Virus record (IMG/VR): IMGVR_UViG_3300045538_000349
Location: 1 to 26,289 of that record
DNA: 26,289 nt
Strand: one strand, 5' to 3'
Source of the DNA: a virus
Shown here: piece after piece, positions 10,658-24,800 of the stretch
How positions within the stretch are numbered: the first letter of the stretch is position 1
How the letters are laid out: each line of letters begins with the position of its first letter
Notes under the pieces: model-generated
The model's database searches: none
The model's input: the letters and a program-made list of their open reading frames with translations, nothing else
What the model was told of the DNA's origin: nothing
Program-made: the position numbers and the translations under genes

Positions 10658-12583
10658 ATGTCATTGCTAGACCAATCTTTTGTGGATTCCTATTCTCAAA
10701 AACTACCGCCGTGGGGTTTTAACGGCATGGGAGAAATTGTATTTTTGCGTACCTACAGTCGCAAAAAAGATGATGGAAACAATGAAACTTGGGTTGAGAC
10801 TCTTAAGAGAGTTGTCAATGGCGCGCATGAGATTGGTGTTGAATATACAAAAAAAGAAGCGGAAGCACTATTCGACCATATGTTTAATTTGCGGTGCTCA
10901 TTTTCTGGCAGAGCACTTTGGCAACTCGGAACACCGCTTGTTCAAAAATATAATGGCTCGTCGCTAAACAACTGCTACTTCACCAACATTGAGAGAATTG
11001 AGGATTTTGAGCTTCTATTTGAGTATTTAATGCTAGGTGGAGGAGTTGGTTTTTCTGTAGAACGGTCGAAGATACATGACCTTCCAAAAGTAAAATCCGG
11101 AGTATCCATTACCCAAGAACGCAGCAATGATGCCGACATTATTGTCCCTGACTCGCGACATGGATGGAAGCGCCTTCTGCACGCTGTACTCAAATCGTAT
11201 TTTGAAACTGGTAAGTCATTTTCCTACTCAACAATTTTGATTCGAGAGTACGGTGCACCTCTCAAGACTTTTGGTGGCACTGCTTCTGGTCCAGGTGCGC
11301 TCATTGACGGGATTGCAGATATTTGTAAAGTTTTGGATGGTCGCGTTGGTAAAAAATTGCGCTCGATTGATGTGTTGGATATATGCAATATCATTGGTCG
11401 TGTCGTTGTGTCTGGCTCGTCACGTCGGTCAGCGCAGATTGCTATGGGCGACCCCGATGATGTTTTGTTCCTTCGTGCTAAGAATTGGGCAACAGGGACC
11501 ATTCCAGCCTGGCGTGCAAACTCAAACAACAGCATCTACGCGGACTCCTACGAGGAAATCATGCCTGAGCTATGGAAAGGATATGACGGCACCGGCGAGC
11601 CTTATGGTTTACTCAACCGGAAGTTAGCTCGCACCGTCGGTCGACTAGGAGAAAAAAATAGTGACCCTTCCATTGAGGGTTTTAACCCTTGTGCCGAGAT
11701 TGCTCTTGCCGACGGGGAATCGTGCAATCTTTCGACCATTTATCTTCCAAACGTAGAAAGCAAAAAACAACTCAAAGAAATATCTATCCTTTTGTATAAG
11801 ACGCAAAAACAAATAACCCGTCTTAGTTACCCATATGAAAAGACAACTAACGCTGTGAAAAAGAACGCTCGCCTAGGGCTGAGCGTTACTGGAATCCTTC
11901 AGGTGGCGCACGAAAAGATTGACTGGCTCGATGATGCCTACAGGTGTCTTGTCGACTTTGACAAGGAGTACTCAAAAGAAAAAGGCTGGTCGCCTTCGGT
12001 TCGTCTAACTACTGTTCAGCCGTCTGGCACGCTGTCCCTACTCCCTGGCGTTACACCTGGAGTACACCCGGCTTTTGCTCAGTACTACATTCGTCGCGTT
12101 CGCTTTGGTTCATCTGACCCACTTGTTGATGCCTGCCGTAAGCGTGGGCATAAAGTGCAATGGGATATTGGTCTTGATGGACGAGAGGACCACACTCGCT
12201 ATGTCGTGGACTTCCCTTGTATGTCGCCGGAAGGCTCGGTTCTTGCTAAGTCAATGACTGCCGTAGACCAGCTTGAGTGGGTTAAGAAGATGCAAACCAT
12301 CTGGGCAGACAACGCCGTATCCGTCACGGTTTACTACCGCAAAGAGGAGCTTCCTTTAATAAAAAACTGGCTTGAATCCAATTATACCGATGGGGTTAAG
12401 TCAGTGTCTTTTCTCCTTCACGCAGACCACAACTTCCCACTACCCCCATATGAAGAGTGCACAAAAGAAGAGTACGAAAAGACGCTGGCGGCTATTAATT
12501 TTACTGTGCCTTTGCAACATCAAGCTTTCGCTGGAGAATTACAGTTTGATGATTGCTCAACTGGTGCCTGCCCAGTCAAATAA
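10658..12583 (+). CDS. Adenosylcobalamin-dependent ribonucleoside-triphosphate reductase (class II, monomeric)
   Basis: 641 residues. It reduces ribonucleoside triphosphates to deoxynucleotides for phage DNA synthesis, using a radical made from vitamin B12 coenzyme, so it works without oxygen or iron. The catalytic set of the Lactobacillus leichmannii enzyme is complete: Cys106 (NNCYF) and Cys356 (ESCNLS) are the redox pair; Asn343, Cys345 and Glu347 (NPCAEIAL) form the radical site; Cys633 and Cys638 (CSTGACPVK) are the C-terminal shuttle. The 11-residue spacing between radical Cys and second redox Cys, and the 5-residue spacing of the tail, equal those of the reference enzyme. The chain is about 100 residues shorter than the reference (739). 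GGAAGG lies 6 bases before the ATG. It stands alone on the plus strand and ends flush against the convergent subtilase gene. Confidence 0.96.
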   Translation: MSLLDQSFVDSYSQKLPPWGFNGMGEIVFLRTYSRKKDDGNNETWVETLKRVVNGAHEIGVEYTKKEAEALFDHMFNLRCSFSGRALWQLGTPLVQKYNGSSLNNCYFTNIERIEDFELLFEYLMLGGGVGFSVERSKIHDLPKVKSGVSITQERSNDADIIVPDSRHGWKRLLHAVLKSYFETGKSFSYSTILIREYGAPLKTFGGTASGPGALIDGIADICKVLDGRVGKKLRSIDVLDICNIIGRVVVSGSSRRSAQIAMGDPDDVLFLRAKNWATGTIPAWRANSNNSIYADSYEEIMPELWKGYDGTGEPYGLLNRKLARTVGRLGEKNSDPSIEGFNPCAEIALADGESCNLSTIYLPNVESKKQLKEISILLYKTQKQITRLSYPYEKTTNAVKKNARLGLSVTGILQVAHEKIDWLDDAYRCLVDFDKEYSKEKGWSPSVRLTTVQPSGTLSLLPGVTPGVHPAFAQYYIRRVRFGSSDPLVDACRKRGHKVQWDIGLDGREDHTRYVVDFPCMSPEGSVLAKSMTAVDQLEWVKKMQTIWADNAVSVTVYYRKEELPLIKNWLESNYTDGVKSVSFLLHADHNFPLPPYEECTKEEYEKTLAAINFTVPLQHQAFAGELQFDDCSTGACPVK

Positions 12584-13762
12584 TTAAGGACGTCCTGGCG
12601 AATAACGCTTAGAAATCCACATCAGCTGATTGCCGGTGTTAACACAGACATATGGAACTCCATAAAATACAGTTCGAGTTGCTGGAGTTGAACAGACCGA
12701 ACCATTGACCGTGTCAGGGACGGTTGTTTGTACTGGCTGAACCGTAGTTGTTGTTGGCGACACATACGGAATAGTTGTGGTCGTTACCGGGACCGTTGGA
12801 GTCGTTACTGGGACCGTTGTGGTTGTAGTAGGTGTGGGATTTTGACCCACGTCAAATAATGAATACGCCAATAGGTTAGAGCTTCCTTCTCCTAAATTCT
12901 TAATAGCGTCCATAGTTGCAATGTTTTTAAGTTTTTCCTCAACTTGCACTTGGGTCATTTGTGGACTTTGTTCCAACATAAGGGCAACAATTCCGCTAAC
13001 AATAGGTGCGGCATTTGATGTTCCACTACTCGACCTGTAGGTGTTCGGTGCGCCAACCCACGCTCCAACAATGTCTGAACCTGGCGCAAGAATGTCAACG
13101 CAGGGACCATAGTTCGAATAATGTGCACGAGACTCCGACATATCAATCGCGCCTACTGCTATCACTGGGGTCTGCGAAGCGGGAGAATATAAGCAGGCGT
13201 CGCGATTTTGATTCCCTGAAGCAGCCACAACAATCAGGCCATCGTCAATAAGTCTTTGAGTCGCCTCGTTGAACGCAATAGACTTACTGGTGCCGACACT
13301 CATATTTACGATTGCTGGGACACCCTCTTTGTGGTGTTCGATAATCCAATCAAAAGCTGGATATAGGCTTGCCATAGAGGAATTACTGTTGTTGCAATTC
13401 AAAACACGAACAGACACAAGTTTTACTTGTTTGGCTACGCCATATTTTGTGCCGCCGATGAGACTTGCGGAATGAGTTCCATGTCCGGCGCAATCTTCTG
13501 CGCCTAGACCATCAGTAATAACCCCAAATCCAGCCTCAACACGTCCGCCAAAGTCTTCGTGACCAGAATAGATTCCGGAGTCAAAGACGTACACGGTAAC
13601 GCCAGCACCGGTAAGCGAATAGTTGTATGTATCGTTCAACGTCGCCTCGCGTTGGTCAATTCTGTCGAGACCCCATGCGGGTCGCCATCCGTCTTGGTTT
13701 TCTAGCGGCTGAGAAATAAGTGACGTTGTTGCAAAGAGGAGCAGAAAAATAAAGTTAAACAT
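12584..13762 (-). CDS. Secreted subtilisin-like serine protease (S8, proteinase K type)
   Basis: 392 residues. Residues 1-18 are a signal peptide. The catalytic triad is Asp61 (VYVFDSGI), His93 (DCAGHGTHSA) and Ser248 (SSGTSNAAP), with oxyanion Asn183 (ASGNQN). The catalytic domain begins straight after the signal peptide (WGLDRIDQRE), so there is no inhibitor-I9 propeptide, which most secreted subtilases need for folding. After about residue 310 comes a Thr/Pro/Val linker of some 45 residues and a small C-terminal segment with two cysteines (SVCSTPATRTVFYG and YVCVNTGNQLMWISKR). AAAGG precedes the ATG. Its stop codon directly abuts the stop of the convergent reductase. The protein would act outside the cell or at its surface. 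It could help entry or exit, remove surface receptors or process virion proteins. Confidence 0.93.
   Translation of the reverse strand: MFNFIFLLLFATTSLISQPLENQDGWRPAWGLDRIDQREATLNDTYNYSLTGAGVTVYVFDSGIYSGHEDFGGRVEAGFGVITDGLGAEDCAGHGTHSASLIGGTKYGVAKQVKLVSVRVLNCNNSNSSMASLYPAFDWIIEHHKEGVPAIVNMSVGTSKSIAFNEATQRLIDDGLIVVAASGNQNRDACLYSPASQTPVIAVGAIDMSESRAHYSNYGPCVDILAPGSDIVGAWVGAPNTYRSSSGTSNAAPIVSGIVALMLEQSPQMTQVQVEEKLKNIATMDAIKNLGEGSSNLLAYSLFDVGQNPTPTTTTTVPVTTPTVPVTTTTIPYVSPTTTTVQPVQTTVPDTVNGSVCSTPATRTVFYGVPYVCVNTGNQLMWISKRYSPGRP
12780..12821. repeat. 21-bp tandem duplication in the protease linker
   Basis: Two adjacent 21-base units (12780-12800 and 12801-12821) both begin GTCGTTAC and contain GGGACCGTTG; they differ at only a few positions. 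They encode the repeated TVPVTT units of the Thr/Pro linker. Such in-frame repeats can expand or contract by slippage and so vary linker length. Confidence 0.7.
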
Positions 13763-13838
13763 TGTTATTGCCTTTCATTGAGTTATAGACCATTTTAGCC
13801 CTTACGGGGGAATCTTGCTACTTTTTTTACCTTAAAAC

Positions 13839-13894
13839 GGTGTACTTTGTGTATTAGCATATTATCGCATATTATCCGATACACAAAGTACACC
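13839..13894. repeat. 16-bp perfect inverted repeat enclosing a 10-bp tandem repeat
   Basis: GGTGTACTTTGTGTAT (13839-13854) is repeated exactly in inverse orientation at 13879-13894. The 24-base spacer contains GCATATTATC twice in tandem (13857-13866 and 13867-13876). The element lies in the 152-bp gap between the divergent subtilase and oxygenase genes. Its right arm falls between the -35 and -10 positions of the probable oxygenase promoter, so a protein bound here would block that promoter. The tandem units read GATAAT on the minus strand and TATTAT on the plus strand and could themselves be -10 boxes. A dimeric or tetrameric repressor operator is the simplest reading; a large RNA hairpin is possible too. 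Confidence 0.8.
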
Positions 13895-13906
13895 AAGCAC
13901 TATGAT
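13878..13906 (+). promoter_or_regulatory. Candidate leaderless promoter of the oxygenase gene
   Basis: TATGAT at 13901-13906 matches the -10 consensus at 5 of 6 positions and lies 8 bases before the ATG at 13915, as in leaderless actinobacterial genes; there is no Shine-Dalgarno site. A weak -35 (GATACA, 13878-13883) is 17 bases upstream. The right arm of the inverted repeat covers the spacer. Confidence 0.4.
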
Positions 13907-13914
13907 TACCAGTC

Positions 13915-14703
13915 ATGGACCGGCAAATCACCTTAGTAAAAGGAATCAGTGTTGGGCATATTCCGCCAACCCCACGCTCAATAAATTTCCAAAACTTTCG
14001 GCTTACGGGCATTCGTGATTTCTTGGTTGCTCAAGCCTGCAGTTATGGGTTCCCTATTGCATACGTTCAAGAACAAAACGGCAACTTGGTGCAAAATATT
14101 TTTCCCATACAAAAAACAGAAACACAACAAATTTCAACATCATCAAAAATTGAATTGGGACTACACACCGAAACGGCTTTTCATCCATATAAACCATCCG
14201 CGGTATTGCTTTTGTGTCTTCGGGGTGACCCTGAAGCGGTAACTACATATGCCTACGTCGACGAAATCGTTAAGCATATTACGCCGATGATGTTAAATAC
14301 CTTGACTCAGCCTTGGTTTACTACTTCGATTGACGAAAGTTTCCGCACTAAAGGTCAGCCAGACATGGAAATGACTTGTTCAATTCTTAGAGAAGAGGTT
14401 TATGGACTCAATCCACTCTATGAAATCACGTACGACGAGGCGTTGATGAAGGCTACGAATGCTCAGGCGGAAGAAGCCTTAAACGAACTTAAAGAAGCAA
14501 TTAAAAAATGCACCCGCGAAATAGTTTTAGAGTCTGGCGACTTACTAGTATTCAACAACAAAACAACAATTCACGGACGGCGCCCATTTCAAGCAAGGTA
14601 CGACGGAACCGATAGATGGGTGCAACGAATTCTTGCTATCGATACATTACCTCCCGCATCTCATCGGGACAAACATGTGATTGTAACCAAATTCGGCAAT
14701 TAA
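13915..14703 (+). CDS. Clavaminate-synthase-like 2-oxoglutarate/Fe(II) oxygenase
   Basis: 262 residues of the TauD/clavaminate synthase superfamily. The iron ligands are His84 and Glu86 (LGLHTETAFH) and His220 (NNKTTIHGRR); Arg234 (GTDRWVQR), 14 residues after the last His, should bind 2-oxoglutarate, the same spacing as in the arginine hydroxylase VioC. HxE instead of HxD, AVLLLCLRGD and GDLLVFNN are typical of the branch that hydroxylates free amino acids such as Arg, Asn or Lys. Members are usually 310-360 residues, so this is a compact form, shortened mainly at the N-terminus. It probably hydroxylates an amino acid or related small molecule; the substrate is unknown. It is divergent from the subtilase and convergent with the ferredoxin gene. 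Confidence 0.88.
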   Translation: MDRQITLVKGISVGHIPPTPRSINFQNFRLTGIRDFLVAQACSYGFPIAYVQEQNGNLVQNIFPIQKTETQQISTSSKIELGLHTETAFHPYKPSAVLLLCLRGDPEAVTTYAYVDEIVKHITPMMLNTLTQPWFTTSIDESFRTKGQPDMEMTCSILREEVYGLNPLYEITYDEALMKATNAQAEEALNELKEAIKKCTREIVLESGDLLVFNNKTTIHGRRPFQARYDGTDRWVQRILAIDTLPPASHRDKHVIVTKFGN

Positions 14704-14722
14704 TTTTTTAATAAATTTTAAT

Positions 14723-14968
14723 TTAGGGTTCTATAAAAATACATTCCCCAGGGCAGTCCTCAGCCGCATCTATCACATCTTGAAGCCTGTCTTCGCCAAA
14801 AGAAGCCAAACCTGCGGCGCCTTCGGGGTTCCCTCGCGCTTTTGAAAATACTTTCCCATTCTCTTGGACGTACGCCAATCCATCCTCCAGCATGATGAAT
14901 ACATCTGGGGCTATTTCCGCGCACAGGCCATCTCCAGTACATAAGTCTTGGTCAATCCAAACCTTCAT
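14723..14968 (-). CDS. Ferredoxin, single-cluster
   Basis: 81 residues. Cluster ligands are Cys10 and Cys16 in DLCTGDGLC, with Asp13 where 4Fe-4S ferredoxins have the second Cys, and Cys72 in EDCPGEC. This C-x2-D-x2-C...C-P pattern is that of actinobacterial [3Fe-4S] ferredoxins and of Asp-liganded [4Fe-4S] ones; a further Cys76 is present. It carries single electrons to a redox partner in the cytoplasm. Its ATG overlaps the thermonuclease stop by one base (TAATG). No partner oxidoreductase is visible nearby; the oxygenase next door does not normally need a ferredoxin, so a host enzyme may be the acceptor. Confidence 0.92.
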   Translation of the reverse strand: MKVWIDQDLCTGDGLCAEIAPDVFIMLEDGLAYVQENGKVFSKARGNPEGAAGLASFGEDRLQDVIDAAEDCPGECIFIEP

Positions 14969-15372
14969 TATTTTTTTTCATTTCTCTTCTTTAAAAGTGC
15001 AGCAAAGTCTTTAACTTTGGTTTCGCCCATATAGCCCCATGCATAACCTTCGTCAATCAGCGTTTGATTGATGGACACTTTATTGTCATCAAGAAACACC
15101 CAACCCAAAATACGACCATACTTTTCTGAACTGTCTGGCTTTTCTGTTCTAATAACAATATTTGTTGCTGCGTCAATTGCTTTCTTTAGTTTATCTTTGA
15201 CTTCTAAGCCTAAAACTTTTTCGGCTTTATCTGTTGTGCGAGATTCGGGGGTATCAATGCCGGCAAGACGAACACGCTGCATATAAGAAATATCAAAACC
15301 TAAATCGATGTCGACATCAATCGTGTCTCCGTCAACAATCTTGATAACTTTTTTTACGCGATACTCGTACAT
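14968..15372 (-). CDS. Thermonuclease (staphylococcal nuclease family)
   Basis: 134 residues, one SNase domain. KIVDGDTIDVDID opens the OB-fold, and RLAGIDTPESR and KYGRILGWVF carry the active site. Arg35, Asp40, Glu43 and Arg87 fall at the same numbers as in the mature Staphylococcus enzyme, so the protein should be an active calcium-dependent nuclease for DNA and RNA. No signal peptide is seen, which suggests action inside the cell, for example on host DNA, or packaging in the virion. The gene ends in A8 followed at once by the stop. The strong terminator of the structural protein stands between it and the gene upstream, so it needs its own promoter or read-through. Confidence 0.94.
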   Translation of the reverse strand: MYEYRVKKVIKIVDGDTIDVDIDLGFDISYMQRVRLAGIDTPESRTTDKAEKVLGLEVKDKLKKAIDAATNIVIRTEKPDSSEKYGRILGWVFLDDNKVSINQTLIDEGYAWGYMGETKVKDFAALLKKRNEKK

Positions 15373-15393: not shown

Positions 15394-15425
15394 TTAAAGC
15401 ACCCCGCCGAAGCGGGGTGCTTTAA
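15394..15425 (-). terminator. Strong intrinsic terminator with UUCG tetraloop
   Basis: A perfect 14-bp stem (15394-15407 with 15412-15425) has the loop TTCG closed by a C-G pair when read on the minus strand, the classic extra-stable tetraloop. The stem is G+C-rich at its top and ends in TTTAA. It lies 15 bases after the stop of the small structural protein, whose transcript it should end. The same stem in the plus direction has loop CGAA, so the UUCG loop marks minus-strand use. Confidence 0.88.
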
Positions 15426-24491: not shown

Positions 24492-24800
24492 ATGCCATAC
24501 TGGAACGAACACGATTTAGATTTTCCATCTATTGACTTACACGTGGGCAGACCTAAGTGGATAAGAGACAGAAACTGTCTTGATGAGCCTGTGGATACCT
24601 TCTACCCCGCACCCGGAGATGTGGAGAGACTGCGCAGAGCTAAAAGTATTTGCAAAGAATGCGTAGTGCGTCATCAATGCTTGGAGCACGCACTAACCAC
24701 TAACGAACGATTTGGTATCTGGGGTGGCAAGAGCGCTCGTGAGCGCAGTCTTATCTTGCGTGCAGCGCGCCTAGTGGCTCGTCCTCGTAATGAAGATTGA
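24492..24800 (+). CDS. WhiB-family iron-sulfur transcriptional regulator
   Basis: 102 residues. The four cluster ligands of the family are present: Cys29, then Cys54, Cys57 and Cys63 (ICKECVVRHQC), followed by the GIWGG turn and a basic C-terminal helix (KSARERSLILRAARLVARPR) that contacts DNA. WhiB-like proteins bind a [4Fe-4S] cluster and the main sigma factor and steer host promoters; phage members can repress host whiB2 and block superinfection. The family is confined to actinobacteria and their phages, so it identifies the host phylum. The gene is alone on the plus strand, has no Shine-Dalgarno site and may be leaderless. Its last 50 bases overlap the convergent gene. Confidence 0.96.
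   Translation: MPYWNEHDLDFPSIDLHVGRPKWIRDRNCLDEPVDTFYPAPGDVERLRRAKSICKECVVRHQCLEHALTTNERFGIWGGKSARERSLILRAARLVARPRNED

Follow-up and report, generated by a model that had tools for sequence, protein, structure and literature searches.

Short repeated elements in the intergenic regions of actinophages are of several kinds. The L5-type stoperator, with the consensus GGTGGMTGTCAAG, is an asymmetric short operator of 13 bp that is present in many copies. The ESAS of Cluster K phages consist of imperfect inverted arms of ~17 bp around a spacer of 4–13 bp; they occur many times per genome and are mostly linked to the 13-bp SAS (PMC3203893). Cluster O phages carry 17-bp dyad repeats in more than 30 copies (PMC4351075) and the Microbacterium phages of cluster EG 18-bp repeats (PMC7302621), both being compact palindromes (7-3-7 or 8-2-8) found 8 to over 30 times per genome (PMC4351075, PMC7302621). 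The function of all three is given as unknown in the papers that describe them, those of Cluster O and EG being presumed regulatory (PMC3203893, PMC4351075, PMC7302621). An operator system between divergent genes is known from pLS20, where RcoLS20 acts at overlapping divergent promoters through multi-site, looping operators and is itself encoded by one of the two divergent genes (PMC4207663).

The locus described here lies in the 26,289-base virus record IMGVR_UViG_3300045538_000349, a tailed-phage fragment that was analyzed over its whole length and is referred to as the window. Its genes encode a terminase, a portal, a head protease, a ribonucleotide reductase of class II (nrdJ) and, at 24492–24800, a regulator of the WhiB type, and this content, WhiB included, suggests an actinobacterial host for the uncultured phage. 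An initial annotation of the sequence had pointed to a large inverted repeat between genes for a secreted protease and an amino-acid oxygenase, and both gene calls proved right. The former encodes a secreted S8 subtilisin-like protease (12584–13762, minus strand), the latter a TauD-family enzyme, more precisely a TauD/VioC/AsnO-type Fe(II)/2-oxoglutarate amino-acid hydroxylase (13915–14703, plus strand; hereafter oxygenase), to which, among solved structures, the asparagine oxygenase AsnO, lysine 3-hydroxylase and arginine hydroxylases including VioC come closest. An alignment that begins at residue 1 backs the start of the oxygenase at 13915; no Shine-Dalgarno sequence is visible upstream of this start. 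The two genes are divergent, and the 152-bp gap between them is AT-rich, with 36% G+C versus 45% in the whole window. At its far end the protease gene is convergent with nrdJ (plus strand), the stop codons abutting at 12583–12584 with zero gap; the same convergent arrangement, with a few bases in between, is seen in the related contigs L100–L105.

The gap holds a 56-bp element. Its left arm, GGTGTACTTTGTGTAT (13839–13854, plus strand), is matched by a right arm, ATACACAAAGTACACC (13879–13894, minus strand), that is its exact reverse complement, and between the arms lie two abutting copies of GCATATTATC (13857–13866 and 13867–13876, both plus strand), identical in 10/10 positions. The arms are complementary in 16/16 positions and spaced by 24 nt, which puts their centers 40 bp apart (about four helical turns), and their dyad axis falls exactly between the two tandem units. 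To this description, which the initial annotation already contained in outline, we add a direct repeat inside each arm, GTGTA-N4-GTGTA, which has no other occurrence in the window; in the left arm GTGTA stands at 13840–13844 and 13849–13853, and in the right arm TACAC at 13880–13884 and 13889–13893.

The inverted repeat is beyond chance. With spacers limited to 60 bp, its 16-bp arms form the longest perfect inverted repeat of the window; among 300 simulated windows (first-order Markov), none contained arms of at least 16 bp and about one contained arms of at least 14 bp. The perfect 16-bp repeat around two exact tandem 10-mers, reported earlier for this divergent gap, is thus confirmed. Folded as a single strand, the element is clearly more stable than its shuffles (z = −6.6) and reaches −26.1 kcal/mol as RNA; these values are for the plus strand, and the minus strand forms an identical stem.

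In its general appearance, an inverted-repeat pair of about 17 bp within a short intergenic gap, just upstream of an actinophage start codon, the element resembles the Cluster K ESAS (PMC3203893), but it differs from them in having perfect arms that stand 24 bp apart, in its single copy and in the missing SAS (PMC3203893). The SAS, GGGATAGGAGCCC, has no match in the window at up to two mismatches, its best alignment within the gap having six, and where ESAS are multi-copy, the element is present once in the 26-kb fragment. The repeats of Cluster O and EG are likewise inverted repeats within actinophage gaps (PMC4351075, PMC7302621), but they are built without internal tandem units and their sequences are unrelated to that of the window's element; a search with the EG palindrome gave no match. 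We do not file the element under any of these three groups. Compared to the L5 stoperator, it has the GGTG at the start in common but mismatches at 6 of the 13 positions; the window contains no stoperator site at up to two mismatches, and no repressor gene was seen. The likeness to pLS20 consists in operator elements placed at the promoters of divergent genes (PMC4207663), yet the operators there are farther apart, and the window has no adjacent regulator and a separate protease promoter (PMC4207663). The initial annotation knew of no described actinophage operator of this form. Repeated inverted-repeat elements are known from Cluster K (ESAS), Cluster O and Microbacterium EG phages, none of them in this form. 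What sets the element apart from these actinophage repeats is that its arms are perfect, that a long spacer with tandem units separates them, that the fragment has it only once and that its sequence is unrelated to theirs.

Several further element classes were considered and rejected. An intrinsic terminator is not apparent, as the loop has 24 nt, there is no T run on the plus side and only GTTTT on the minus side, and a terminator scan finds none here. For a MITE or other mobile element, no further copies were found in the sequences searched, and a target duplication beside the arms is not apparent by eye. The best alignment to the E. coli dif site, as a test for a dif/Xer site, has 13 mismatches in 28 positions; the Fur box, GATAATGATAATCATTATC, mismatches the element at 9/19 positions, and other parts of the window match it better by chance. 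No Rfam family of structured RNA reaches its gathering cut-off, and the sub-threshold matches are to microRNA hairpin models only.

Searches of the window, of 150 loci and of the sequence collections found no second copy of the element, and with a single copy in the 26-kb fragment no regulon is visible. A single 16-mer arm had 18 exact matches in viral contigs, all of them lone arms in unrelated contigs; we did not take these for true relatives, as 18 is about the number expected by chance, in an estimate that uses an assumed collection size. In 1.5 Mb of fetched loci, arms with up to three mismatches were found 33 times, compared to 21 for shuffled motifs, which is not an excess because 18 of the 33 are loci that had been chosen for the exact 16-mer. 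Loosely paired arms (five mismatches each) gave 49 pairs, within the range of 10–69 obtained with five shuffled motifs. The tandem 20-mer, GCATATTATCGCATATTATC, had one match in the search (L149:8421–8440). This match belongs to an unrelated phage, is flanked by a stop codon and a terminator-like hairpin and lacks the arms; we read it as a coincidence. The 11+11-bp core pattern had no match in viral contigs and one in the genome collection (L150, Acidobacteria); the latter falls within a gene, a reading frame of 488 aa, and looks like chance. With blastn, the gap had no match in phages and only short matches in plasmids (E = 4).

The relatives of the window fall into two groups, one for each side of the gap. 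The backbone, formed by the protease and the class II ribonucleotide reductase, matches contigs L100–L105, and the oxygenase together with the ferredoxin gene that follows it (14723–14968, minus strand) matches contigs L001–L004. In L001, L003 and L004, the oxygenase has 67–69% protein identity to ours and is convergent with the ferredoxin, as in the window, the two adjacent ferredoxins being 94–98% identical; the protease is absent from the stretch examined. Conversely, the protease lies beside nrdJ, as in the window, in L100–L105, L106, L109, L111, L113 and L114, where the gene upstream of it varies and the oxygenase is missing; in L104, for example, a nuclease (94% identical to the window's) and a different ferredoxin are immediately upstream. 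DNA similarity to the protease-bearing relatives stops at about 13784, and that to L001, L003 and L004 spans about 14065–14975. The stretch between the end of the protease-side homology and the oxygenase, 13785–13914, is free of homologues in all relatives. From this two-sided split of homology we conclude that the conserved protease-nrdJ backbone of one phage group most likely had the oxygenase-ferredoxin module of another spliced into it, with 13785–13914 as the presumed joint, which holds the entire repeat; the oxygenase would thus be a recent import.

The inverted repeat itself was not found in any relative. The initial annotation had regarded arms that are not conserved in close relatives as evidence against its proposal. 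Formally, this is the situation among the relatives found, but they are not close at this locus, and we do not consider it a true refutation. Upstream of the oxygenase genes of 62 relatives, strong inverted repeats are absent; the values average 7.4, compared to 6.4 in controls, with a best of 12, and are thus slightly above control but not comparable to the window. L001 (upstream of 5001), L003, L004 and L005 have a reading frame of ~70 residues with a CxxC-like motif that ends shortly before the oxygenase start and is missing in the window. Cargo at 14723–15372, in the interval that separates the protease from the terminase region, is swapped among phages as well, the ferredoxin being like that of L001, L003 and L004 (94–98%) and the adjoining nuclease like that of L104 (94%).

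Two candidate promoters for the oxygenase, both recognized by consensus match only, overlap the element. The top-scoring sigma-70-like pair in the gap, P1 (13847–13875, plus strand), comprises TTGTGT (13847–13852) and TATTAT (13870–13875) at a distance of 17 bp, with the −35 box in the left arm and the −10 box in the second 10-mer, directed toward the oxygenase. Its predicted start is near 13882, inside the right arm, so that in this layout one arm lies over the −35 box and the other over the start site. In the alternative, P2 (13878–13906, plus strand), GATACA (13878–13883) and TATGAT (13901–13906) are separated by 17 bp, with the right arm in the spacer, and the transcript, predicted to begin near 13913, would be nearly leaderless. 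The proposed location of the right arm in the spacer of the oxygenase promoter is thus correct only with TATGAT (13901–13906) as the −10 box, whereas the better-scoring TTGTGT-N17-TATTAT begins within the left arm. A stricter scan found no promoter with 9/12 consensus bases in the gap.

On the minus strand, a promoter-like pair for the protease (13792–13820), TAGCAA (13820–13815) and TAAAAT (13797–13792) with 17 bp in between and a predicted start near 13785, aligns with boxes of the TTGCAA/TAGACT type that relatives have at this position. In the aligned upstream regions, read by eye, these are TAGCAA-17-TAGAAT (L104), TTGCAA-17-TAGACT (L101), TTGTAA-17-TAGACT (L100) and TTGCGA-17-TAAACT (L111). 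The pair is located 18 bp outside the left arm and is conserved in relatives without any repeat. Because these relatives keep the protease promoter in the absence of the repeat, basal expression of the protease is probably independent of it, to judge from the alignments, and this weakens the proposal of the initial annotation that the element jointly controls protease and oxygenase.

We tentatively interpret the 56-bp element as a candidate regulated promoter, made of an operator and a promoter core, that would serve the imported oxygenase and might also act on the protease; we consider this the best reading, at a likelihood a little short of even. It retains the operator-like character proposed at the outset, the element being non-random, AT-rich, intergenic, unlike a terminator and placed over plausible oxygenase promoter boxes, and gives up much of the joint protease control. 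An operator is supported by the perfection of the arms and tandem units, by their location in a non-coding, AT-rich gap, by the sigma-70-like boxes in and between the arms, by the GTGTA-N4-GTGTA in each arm and by the conserved protease promoter outside the element. The uniqueness of the element among the sequences searched and its single copy in the window count against one, as do the stricter promoter scan and the comparison with the oxygenase genes of 62 relatives; no cognate regulator was identified, and such sites are not known as targets of WhiB proteins.

Both 16-bp arms could be bound by a dimer or oligomer of a DNA-binding protein, encoded by the phage or its host, through two GTGTA half-sites in each. 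If P1 is the promoter, the arms would cover its −35 box and start site and binding would exclude RNA polymerase, as with promoter-bracketing operators; if it is P2 (TATGAT at 13901), the right arm would lie between the −35 and −10 boxes, also a repressor position. Since with both candidates the oxygenase promoter is bracketed or entered by the arms, we favor an operator of the repressor type, and promoter use, protein binding and repression are what we infer for the element. For the protease, whose own promoter lies 18 bp farther out than the left arm, only an indirect effect would be expected. Direct control of both genes by one regulator on the two arms, for instance through DNA bending or looping, would agree with the symmetry of the element and with a left-arm center that precedes the inferred protease start by ~61 bp, a frequent activator position, but the protease promoters of relatives have the same boxes without the element, and we consider such control distinctly improbable.

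The strongest rival to the operator is a neutral scar of the joint: when illegitimate recombination imported the oxygenase, template switching would have made an inverted copy of 16 bp and slippage would have doubled 10 bp, with no function beyond that which the sequence provides incidentally. The element sits exactly in the homologue-free stretch of the mosaic joint and is unique to this phage, and perfect arms and tandem units are the expected trace of a recent mutational event; its uniqueness and perfection are, however, compatible with both readings. A scar would require two separate events within 56 bp whose products are symmetric, with the dyad axis exactly between the units, and which happen to be placed on plausible promoter boxes; moreover, the vicinity shows no copy that could have been the source of the arm. 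We regard a scar as unlikely, though worth serious consideration. The two readings would merge if the inverted and tandem copies arising during the import had themselves made a new, symmetric and repressible cargo promoter, a combination that seems rather improbable to us. To about the same degree improbable is a role in RNA: as most genes here point left, read-through from the ferredoxin gene, antisense to the oxygenase, could cross the repeat before the protease, where the stem would slow, end or process the transcript. Gene orientation and the stable fold would suit this, but the 24-nt loop, the mere GTTTT 3' of the minus-strand stem, the negative terminator scan and the lack of an Rfam family at cut-off would not, nor would the comparison with an ordinary terminator-like hairpin of the window (15394–15425), which has a 4-nt loop. 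Finally, we consider it very improbable that the repeat is what remains of a small mobile element, or a site at which cargo is exchanged by site-specific recombination (MITE, REP, dif- or lox-like). Terminal inverted repeats at a cargo joint might suggest this, but the searches for a second copy, the inspection for a target duplication and the comparison with E. coli dif all argue against it, and no such site was noticed where the module ends on its far side.

If functional, the candidate operator-promoter would be a compact regulated promoter with which an uncultured phage drives a cargo gene, and would show in a concrete instance how a newly imported metabolic gene comes under control in a mosaic genome. 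As a joint scar, the element would cleanly illustrate how illegitimate recombination can leave inverted and tandem copies at a joint, and if it was a promoter-operator born there, phages could bring new genes under control in one step. In either reading it is a single case, of an ordinary kind.

Other hairpins were seen in the course of the analysis. The terminator-like hairpin at 15394–15425 lies between two leftward genes and has a perfect 14-bp stem (TTAAAGCACCCCGC-CGAA-GCGGGGTGCTTTAA). A G+C-rich hairpin, with arms like ACGGCGCGCCACTCTC, recurs a few kb before the terminase genes of many related phages (L106:5958–5998, L109:1700–1734, L111:653–689, L113:3323–3359, L114:4997–5030 and L122:5718–5756), a position outside the range of the window.
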